DNA from: Clostridia bacterium
GTDB taxonomy: Bacteria; Bacillota; Clostridia; Christensenellales; Borkfalkiaceae
Length of the DNA stretch: 64,000 nt
NCBI GenBank assembly: GCA_017558825.1
Contig: JAFYTO010000017.1
Span: 1-64,000, forward strand
Direction: 5' to 3'
Positions 12,113 through 44,873 of this stretch are shown piece after piece. Each line of letters begins with the position of its first letter. Position 1 is the first letter of the stretch. The notes under the pieces were generated by a model. The model worked only from the letters and a program-made list of their open reading frames with translations, was not told the origin of the DNA and searched no databases. The position numbers and the translations under genes are program-made.

Positions 12113-12203
12113 ACTTTGTATTAGTTTAAGTGGGGGGCGAACGGGTGGGAATTGGCAACTTATAAATATTTTTAAAAAATATATAGATTTTTTACAGTTG
12201 TTG

Positions 12204-43779: not shown

Positions 43780-43885
43780 AAAAAAATCTCCTTTTTTTGT
43801 TGATTTTATTATAAAATAAAAGTCGTAAATTGTGAAGTTTTAAGGAATATTTTACACCTCAAACGCCTTAAAATTGTAAATATGA

Positions 43886-43909
43886 AGCACCCTTTAATTA
43901 GGGTGCTTT
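43886..43909. repeat. 24-bp hairpin repeat, copy 1
   Basis: An AGCACCC/GGGTGCT hairpin with TTTAATTA-type centre; the same 24 bp recur at 44490-44513. The two copies bracket the divergent HTH gene pair. Confidence 0.7.
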
Positions 43910-43929: not shown

Positions 43930-44136
43930 TCACTCATCTTCTAAACCAATTAAATAATCTGCTGAACAAGAAAAGAAATTGCAAAGAATAATTATACTAT
44001 CAATATTTGGCACTCTTAAATTCTTTTCCCAACGATTAATACAAGCAGTGCTTATATTAAGTATTTTAGATAATTCATATTGTGTAAGATTTTTTTCTTC
44101 CCTTAATTCTTTTAATCTTTCTGCAAACTTATTCAT
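43930..44136 (-). CDS. XRE-family (Cro/CI-like) regulator
   Basis: A 68-aa single-domain HTH_3 protein: LKELREEKNLTQYELSKIL, then ISTACINRWEKNLRVPN, and a C-terminal CNFFSCSADYLIGLED typical of phage or element-type repressors. An AAGGAG site precedes the start codon. It is divergent from the small HTH gene at 44245, and three TACCA/TGGTA palindromes fill the space between them. It probably represses both genes. Confidence 0.88.
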   Translation of the reverse strand: MNKFAERLKELREEKNLTQYELSKILNISTACINRWEKNLRVPNIDSIIILCNFFSCSADYLIGLEDE

Positions 44137-44163: not shown

Positions 44164-44229
44164 TACCAATTGGTAATAAAATGCTTGACATTTACCAAAT
44201 GGTAAATATATAATATATACCAAATGGTA
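44164..44229. promoter_or_regulatory. Three operator palindromes of the divergent HTH pair
   Basis: TACCAATTGGTA (44164-44175, perfect), TACCAAATGGTA (44193-44204) and TACCAAATGGTA (44218-44229), with centres 29 and 25 bp apart. Operator 1 abuts the XRE -10 box; operators 2 and 3 lie in the spacer of, and just after, the plus-strand promoter. Confidence 0.8.
44185..44214 (+). promoter_or_regulatory. Promoter of the plus-strand HTH gene
   Basis: -35 TTGACA (44185-44190), an 18-bp spacer containing operator 2, and -10 TATAAT (44209-44214). Confidence 0.75.
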
Positions 44230-44244
44230 ATTGGGGGAATGAAT

Positions 44245-44445
44245 ATGAAAAACACTATAAAAATTGAAATTATTGAAAAGTATATGTTAAAAAATAATAT
44301 AAGTAAAACAAAATTTTGTAAAATATGCAAAATAAGTCCTAACACCTTAAACAAAATTATGGCTAATGATTTCAACTTTGAAATAGTAGCACTTTTTAAA
44401 ATAGCAAGAATAATTAAAATTGAAGTTTACCAAATGTTTAATTAA
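44245..44445 (+). CDS. Small HTH protein (XRE-like)
   Basis: A 66-aa helix-turn-helix protein (EKYMLKNNISKTKFCKIC, then ISPNTLNKIMANDFNFE) resembling short XRE/Cro-type proteins. Of three in-frame ATGs (44224, 44239, 44245), the last is chosen because GGGGGA lies 7 nt upstream. It is controlled by a TTGACA promoter embedded in the three operators shared with the divergent XRE repressor. The arrangement is that of a miniature CI/Cro switch, but no phage or integrase genes are attached. Confidence 0.78.
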   Translation: MKNTIKIEIIEKYMLKNNISKTKFCKICKISPNTLNKIMANDFNFEIVALFKIARIIKIEVYQMFN

Positions 44446-44489
44446 AGGGTAGCCCTAAGGGCAAATGCCCCGAACGAAGCCACGCAAAA

Positions 44490-44513
44490 AGCACCCTTTA
44501 ATTAGGGTGCTTT
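44490..44513. repeat. 24-bp hairpin repeat, copy 2
   Basis: Identical to 43886-43909. On the minus strand it is followed by five T residues, so it can act as a terminator for transcripts coming from the structured element. Confidence 0.7.
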
Positions 44514-44517
44514 AGCG

Positions 44518-44538
44518 TGGCGGAGAGAGGGGGATTTG
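44518..44538. repeat. Duplicate of the tRNA-Ser 3' end
   Basis: These 21 bp are identical to 44743-44763, the 3' end of tRNA-Ser including its CCA. Copies lie 225 bp apart in direct orientation, the layout left by insertion at a tRNA 3' end. Confidence 0.75.
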
Positions 44539-44684
44539 CTCCGCAATTTTGCTAAAAGCAAAACTTACGCACCTTACGGTGTTGCTATCACGCCTGGGCA
44601 ACAAACGATTATCAATCGTTTGCCCGCAAGCAAAAATAATAACTTAAACTGTATGCTTGCGGTACTTGCCCGTTCAAATCCCCC
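44529..44684. other. Highly structured 156-nt element (candidate ncRNA or tRNA-derived insertion)
   Basis: A 10-bp closing stem (GGGGGATTTG 44529-44538 with CAAATCCCCC 44675-44684) encloses four hairpins: 44547-44553 with 44557-44563 (7 bp), 44570-44573 with 44578-44581 (4 bp), 44603-44610 with 44614-44621 plus GGGC/GCCC (12 bp in all) and 44626-44632 with 44654-44660 (7 bp). The strand is unknown. Terminator-like hairpins lie on both sides (44490-44513 and 44700-44740). A 65-codon open frame crosses it, but its composition is dictated by the stems. This and the repeats account for 44446-44742, where no gene is seen. Confidence 0.55.
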
Positions 44685-44699
44685 AACCTACAACATGTT

Positions 44700-44740
44700 A
44701 AAAGCCCTACTTGAACCACGTGGGTTCAAATAGGGCTTTT
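44700..44740. terminator. Terminator-like hairpin downstream of tRNA-Ser
   Basis: AAAAGCCCTA/TAGGGCTTTT with an inner TTGAACC/GGTTCAA extension. Symmetric, so it can stop tRNA-Ser transcription (minus) and transcripts crossing the structured element (plus). Confidence 0.75.
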
Positions 44741-44742
44741 AA

Positions 44743-44833
44743 TGGCGGAGAGAGGGGGATTTGAACCCCCGATACGCTTATGGCGTATACACGATTTCCA
44801 ATCGTGCTCGTTCGACCACTCCGACATCTCTCC
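44743..44833 (-). tRNA. tRNA-Ser (anticodon GGA)
   Basis: A 91-nt class II tRNA. The acceptor stem is GGAGAGA with TCTCTCC, the anticodon loop TTGGAAA gives GGA (reads UCC/UCU), and it has a long variable arm, a T-loop GTTCAAATC and encoded CCA. Promoter at 44845-44873. The last 21 nt are duplicated at 44518-44538. Confidence 0.97.
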
Positions 44834-44844
44834 AAACAAATCAC

Positions 44845-44873
44845 ATTATACATAATATTTTTAAATTTGGCAA
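44845..44873 (-). promoter_or_regulatory. Promoter of tRNA-Ser
   Basis: Minus strand -35 TTGCCA (44868-44873), 17 bp, -10 TATAAT (44845-44850), ending 12 bp before the tRNA. Confidence 0.75.

Follow-up and report, generated by a model that had tools for sequence, protein, structure and literature searches.

The 64,000-nt stretch of DNA analysed here (the window), from a gut Clostridia bacterium of the family Borkfalkiaceae, carries a structured module on its minus strand (44518-44694), in the sense of the tRNA-Ser(GGA) gene and 3' of both that gene and a terminator-like hairpin. The module is probably one of a new Clostridia family of RtT-type cassettes that are transcribed with the tRNA and disperse among tRNA and tmRNA genes, with uptake of the stretch from T-loop to CCA. 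Read-through transcription, processing and the act of insertion are parts of this reading that we infer, and expression, a mobility enzyme and a function are putative. A preliminary description of the locus had offered either an undescribed structured RNA or a tRNA-targeting insertion, and the two hold together, the module being an undescribed structured element and also an insertion targeted to a tRNA, part of which it carries.

The host tRNA gene was located with ARAGORN and Rfam RF00005 (44743-44833, minus strand, as are all features of the locus that follow), with tRNA positions 56-76 at 44743-44763. A promoter-like site, TTGCCA-17-TATAAT, precedes it (44845-44873; 11/12, a consensus match only), and a consensus scan found no minus-strand promoter-like site between this and the module. 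Following the CCA end there is a proximal palindromic hairpin, terminator-like in sequence (44700-44741), and then the 5' arm of P1, GGGGGATTTG (44675-44684), which is the reverse complement of tRNA positions 56-65. The 5' strand of P2, GGGCAA (44666-44671), pairs with TTGCCC (44596-44601) and encloses the P3 hairpin CCGCAAGCA...TGCTTGCGG (44624-44662), with a 9-bp stem that has other letters in relatives and is still paired, and the P4 hairpin CAAACGATTGATAATCGTTTG (44602-44622), paired in 99% of cells over 81 sequences. The junction motif CCCAGGCGTGATAG (44585-44598) forms a run of conserved alignment columns, and is followed by the variable P5 region (44547-44581), which folds into two small hairpins in the window copy and differs in length among relatives, and by the conserved CGGAGC (44538-44543) immediately 5' of the tRNA copy. 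The tail, CAAATCCCCCTCTCTCCGCCA (44518-44538), repeats tRNA-Ser(GGA) positions 56-76 exactly over 21 nt, CCA included. P1 takes its 3' arm from the first 10 nt of this tail (44529-44538), which pair with 44675-44684 as a 10-bp closing stem. Both the stem around the hairpins and the adjoining copy had been described before, and their positions proved correct.

Beyond the module lies a distal terminator-like hairpin (44488-44513), homologous to sequence immediately 3' of the tRNA in a relative (G054). The claim that terminators flank the module on both sides stood in part: both palindromic hairpins are clear, but a simple terminator scan called neither of them, probably because their T-runs lie within the stems. 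Further out there is the remnant of an older and different module (type E, GCGTGGCTTCG.TCGGGGCATTTGCCC; 44446-44485), homologous to a complete module of G054 (L166) that ends in CCCCCTCTCTCCGCCA. Elsewhere in the window the truncated 5' end of another module of the type-A family, to which the serine module belongs, was found on the plus strand 3' of tRNA-Leu(CAA) (12131-12168), with GAACGGGTGGGAATTGGCAACTTA at 12139-12162 (chance expectation 0). The distal hairpin is one of two occurrences in the window of a 26-bp terminator-like hairpin, AAAGCACCCTTTAATTAGGGTGCTTT (43884-43909 and 44488-44513, one mismatch), which bracket 0.6 kb of DNA containing a divergent pair of small HTH genes (43930-44136, minus; 44224-44445, plus) and, between these, palindromes of the ACCAAATGGTAA type; the HTH pair may be a separately acquired pair of regulators. 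An Rfam search of the window returned only tRNAs above gathering score, the other matches being weak, below gathering score and taken as chance.

The stability of the module's fold exceeded that of dinucleotide shuffles by 5 SD on both strands (z = -5.1 and -5.2), with none of 200 shuffles as stable, which bears out the earlier impression that pairing exceeds that of ordinary intergenic DNA. A covariance model separated the strands, scoring 129.5 bits on the minus strand against 14.5 bits on the plus strand, and the modelled orientation is therefore that of the tRNA. Among 81 distinct sequences 92.8% of cells were paired and changes on both sides were found at 30 of the 33 pairs. Double-change cells numbered 477, compared with 128 +/- 13 after shuffling and at most 85 with slid partners; fitting the alignments to the model biases the result in its favour, yet both controls remained far lower. 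RNAalifold gave the same fold from 32 sequences. The letters of P3 and P4 are almost wholly rewritten among relatives with pairing kept, and the best-conserved letters are those around the junction (AACGGG, GGCGTGATAG and CGGAGC). The excess of G-U over A-C pairs (58:23) mildly favours the tRNA-sense strand as the one that folds, though P4 shows no such bias. Chance structure and ordinary intergenic DNA are both ruled out by the shuffles and the covariation. With dozens of homologues and very strong covariation, the element also withstood the refutation that had been proposed for it, an absence of both. The resemblance of the hairpin at 44602-44622 to the tRNA-Ser anticodon arm, which had also been put forward, turned out to be coincidental; the same hairpin in relatives reads AAACAGTGGACACCCACTGTTT or other unrelated sequences.

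All Clostridia genomes mentioned in this text were assembled from metagenomes. The window's own genome has homologous modules 3' of tRNA-Ser(TGA), where one intact and one degenerate copy (C12:194197-194340) stand in tandem, and 3' of tRNA-Glu(CTC), and the intact copies at both loci carry the tail of their own tRNA. Model R1, a covariance model built from the three intact copies of this genome, matched 35 of the 121 genomes scanned in the taxonomic family, in 8 of 18 genera and with at most five copies per genome, so that most of these genomes lack the type-A core. A second model, R2, matched 11 of 391 sampled genomes from two further families of the class, bringing the range to three Clostridia families overall. 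The modules are hosted by at least 15 tRNA species and by tmRNA, which has three copies 3' of it, and they are often in tandem. Three loci have copies between co-directional tRNA genes (L196, L199 and L201), and in a distant family (f25) several modules occupy the spacer between two co-directional tRNA-Ser genes. One orphan module (L109 920-1040, G081) has a tRNA-Leu(UAG)-like tail, but the 920 bp upstream of it hold no tRNA. When GTDB species genomes were searched for the DNA pattern GAACGGGYRGGN{60,90}GGCGTGATAG, 54 stretches were returned, and those confirmed by the model all came from uncultured Clostridia/Firmicutes of gut samples, mostly ruminant. Matches in Dryocola, Acinetobacter, Rhizobium, Acidobacteria and others were rejected as chance for want of a model match; only one of this kind had a tRNA within 1.5 kb, and that at an unusual distance. 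A phage origin found no support, as the DNA pattern had no match in IMG/VR.

With these copies a common plan became apparent. A typical locus runs from the host tRNA through some 45-60 nt, usually a terminator hairpin, to an inverted copy of the T-arm, the core (P2, P3, P4, the GGCGTGATAG motif, P5 and CGGAGC) and a direct copy of tRNA positions 56/57-76, the cassette measuring ~110-230 nt and the two tRNA-derived arms pairing to close the fold. Over 56 copies, covering 15 tRNA species, the tail agreed with its own tRNA at 17.4/20 positions, 31 copies being perfect, against 11.4/20 when the tRNA assignment was shuffled (maximum 12.5 in 5000 shuffles). The 5' arm likewise paired with its own tRNA at 8.1/9 compared with 7.0 after shuffling (maximum 7.4). 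Of 45 clean copies, 44 start at position 56/57; past the CCA, homology ends at once in 20 of the 45, and its longest stretches are what tandem units would be expected to give. The own tail was found downstream of 63 of 102 tRNAs, a proportion that belongs to a set of loci enriched for modules and is not a genome-wide rate, and a control tail from a randomly chosen other isotype was found in no case. Decayed tails keep positions 57-65 (85% identity) and have lost 66-76 (49%), which suggests that the closing stem matters after arrival and that the rest is a by-product. At one tmRNA (L108) the T-loop has G for T at position 55 and the arm of the module mirrors this G, a position outside the tail; this single case argues that the local T-arm itself is the source of the arm, or the template for its correction, and that the arm is not merely selected for pairing with the tail.

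Comparisons within and between genomes indicate that such cores have dispersed with a change of tail and that the units are dynamic. One genome (G063) has cores that are 93% identical 3' of tRNA-Leu(UAG) and tRNA-Ser(UGA), with tails alike at only 10/20 positions and each matching its own tRNA at 20/20. Another (G068) has near-alike cores with local tails at Gln and Ser tRNAs, and further cases were found. In G054 the tRNA-Ser(GGA) gene is directly adjoined by sequence that in the window (G000) comes only after the module, and a unit with another core is precisely present or absent between G083 and G026. The inserted unit is flanked by a direct repeat of the tRNA 3' end, and presence and absence are precise between relatives. 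A caveat that must be applied here is that a unit flanked by 21-bp repeats is lost by repeat recombination as easily as it is gained; the unit is dynamic, and change in either direction would fit. No genes were seen inside the modules, and no transposase, integrase or reverse transcriptase was linked to them. The genome-wide search for mobility enzymes covered the reverse transcriptase domain RVT_1 (PF00078), which had no hits in the 90%-complete genome, and this speaks against a retroelement.

Modules with other cores are found behind tRNA genes of the same genome. Those at Leu(UAG), Leu(UAA) and Ser(CGA) have quite different cores and similar logic (tRNA, terminator, an arm related to the inverted end, core and direct copy of the end), and the core in the tRNA-Tyr flank resembles that at Ser(CGA). 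Module types with unrelated cores were recorded 3' of Leu(UAG), Leu(UAA), Tyr, Ser(CGA) and Ser(GCU) (L016, L018, L020, L021 and L009), the tails of the Leu(UAG), Leu(UAA) and Ser(CGA) types being 19/20 identical to the tRNA. Separately, a hairpin repeat of the GGATGAAATC type (AAATCCGCC...GGCGGATTTAATTTCATC...) occurs at L014 (1190-1400 and 1590-1770) and at L016, L020, L029 and L030, at tRNA-Leu(UAG), Tyr, Gly(CCC) and Cys; it lies 3' of several tRNA terminators of this genome, has no tRNA tail and at Glu(CTC) sits before the type-A module. At a contig end, tRNA-Arg(ACG) is followed by short tandem units of a terminator and GTGCGCACCGTAAGTATCTCGCAACAAGCGCCA (L027 170-358) with an inverted tRNA end and a direct copy of just 6 nt, perhaps a minimal or collapsed module. 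In a genome of the same order a longer 3' part of tRNA-Thr(CGU) is copied, apparently from the anticodon arm on, with the 5' half replaced by other structured sequence (L192 1283-1450). Rfam gave no match above gathering score for the type-A module or for the other module types.

The closest known system is the RtT RNA of E. coli tyrT (Rfam RF00391), also present in other Enterobacteriaceae, which shares the plan of a tRNA, an arm complementary to the T-arm, a structured core and a copy of the tRNA 3' end with CCA. The Clostridia module has the same features, lying on the same strand directly 3' of a tRNA, with a copy of the tRNA 3' end including CCA and a closing stem made from that copy. At tyrT the E. 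coli RtT sequences are tandem 178-bp repeats. Copies in Dryocola boscaweniae lie 3' of tRNA-Lys, -Pro, -Ser and -Tyr loci, and the Lys, Pro and Ser copies examined carry the local tail. Nine RtT matches were listed there at several tRNA loci (L183-L191), three in tandem 3' of tRNA-Ser(GGA), and the Dryocola core seems to hold a copy of the 5' half of the T-arm, e.g. GCAGGTTCGA at tRNA-Lys. The two families differ in core sequence and helices and in where the tail starts (~58/59 in RtT, 56/57 in Clostridia). RF00391 (gathering score 45 bits) had no match in the window or in 61 genomes of the window's family and R2 none at the RtT loci, so that the module works like RtT and membership of RF00391 is ruled out by models that miss each other in both directions. 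The dual-terminator sRNAs of the E. coli rRNA operons rrA, rrB and rrF (PMC8144298) differ in loci and sequence, and no copy of a host RNA end is reported for them. The literature on RtT, the tyrT repeats and structured RNAs downstream of tRNAs is thin, with little beyond PMC7657543 and PMC2658671, and no paper with a general tail rule was found, though one may exist beyond the scope of the search.

The likeness to RtT also admits an explanation with no dedicated mobility, in which an RNA released from the tRNA precursor serves the cell and has spread by ordinary duplication and gene conversion. Such a host-useful family, as RtT is commonly described, is suggested by the compensatory evolution, by the survival of P1 when the remainder of the tail decays, by the copies found, which share the strand of the tRNA and occur in tRNA operons, and by the RefSeq annotation of RtT RNA as processed from the tyrT transcript. 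It is nevertheless rather unlikely given the patchiness of the module within its taxonomic family, the persistence of degenerate copies such as that at tRNA-Ser(TGA), the lack of any fixed tRNA or neighbour, tmRNA being used too, and the several unrelated cores that occupy the same niche.

Genes for tRNA and tmRNA are classic integration sites for integrases, and a repeat that starts in the T-loop and runs to the CCA could be read as attL and attR of larger integrative elements, the core then being a recombination site, possibly of folded single-stranded DNA, and not an RNA. The choice of hosts fits this reading, as do the tandem stacking with the newest unit nearest the tRNA, which suits the G054/G000 and G083/G026 comparisons, and the scarcity of G-U pairs with no strand bias in P4. 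Elements that integrate at T-loop attachment sites share with the module the direct repeat from T-loop to 3' end, the tRNA and tmRNA targets and the stacked units; the module, in contrast, has a covarying fold as its core, with neither an element body nor a recombinase found. No larger element was seen, IMG/VR has no match to the pattern, the units measure 200-300 bp, and exact tails of 15 different tRNAs are incompatible with a fixed attP. No integrase was tied to a copy, the dedicated enzyme search having covered RVT_1. Attachment-site scars are improbable.

Very improbable is an origin by snap-back, in which a tRNA precursor or replication intermediate uses its own terminator hairpin as the primer for backward copying of the tRNA 3' end, which gives the inverted arm, and then switches template to the core: in types B and E a long palindrome runs from the 3' end of the tRNA across the terminator, the arm is symmetric about the hairpin centre within 5 nt in all 39 proximal modules and the L108 arm mirrors a base that the tail lacks, but the type-A linker matches the acceptor-strand complement no better with the true tRNA assignment than with a shuffled one (4.26 and 4.33), leaving a palindrome into the acceptor stem unsupported on 39 type-A modules, and the reverse transcriptase search was negative.

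Under the favoured reading of a dispersing RtT-type cassette, the module would have no promoter of its own and would be transcribed by read-through of the tRNA terminator, as is suggested by the promoter-like site that precedes the tRNA and the lack of one before the module. A terminator-like hairpin precedes the module, and transcription at the tRNA-Ser(GGA) locus is not assured; modules between tRNA genes, as in f25, would be transcribed directly. The transcript would fold as the tRNA-sense RNA, and its CCA end would be matured as a tRNA end is. Copies would spread among loci by inserting into tRNA-type genes at the T-loop/3' end, with duplication of target positions 56-76, so that the tRNA would stay intact and the newcomer would gain the tail of its new tRNA. 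Later the 66-76 part would decay and P1 be kept. The match of arm and tail could in part be upheld after insertion by template switching or gene conversion.

Until now RtT was a curiosity whose role was unclear. A second family, unrelated in sequence and with the same plan and tail rule, turns it into a class with rules that can be tested, namely the boundary in the T-loop, the local tail and the inverted arm. It is possible, and we propose it only tentatively, that tiny, structured and mobile elements form a general class in bacteria. Such elements would home on the T-loop in any gene of the tRNA type and keep that gene working, gaining the 3' end of the target both as a direct tail and as an inverted arm and so rebuilding the closing helix at each target, with E. 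coli RtT as one known example. With this second family tRNA genes also gain a new kind of resident, one that leaves the gene undisrupted and carries no genes, and how a piece of DNA adopts the sequence of its target at both ends becomes directly testable.
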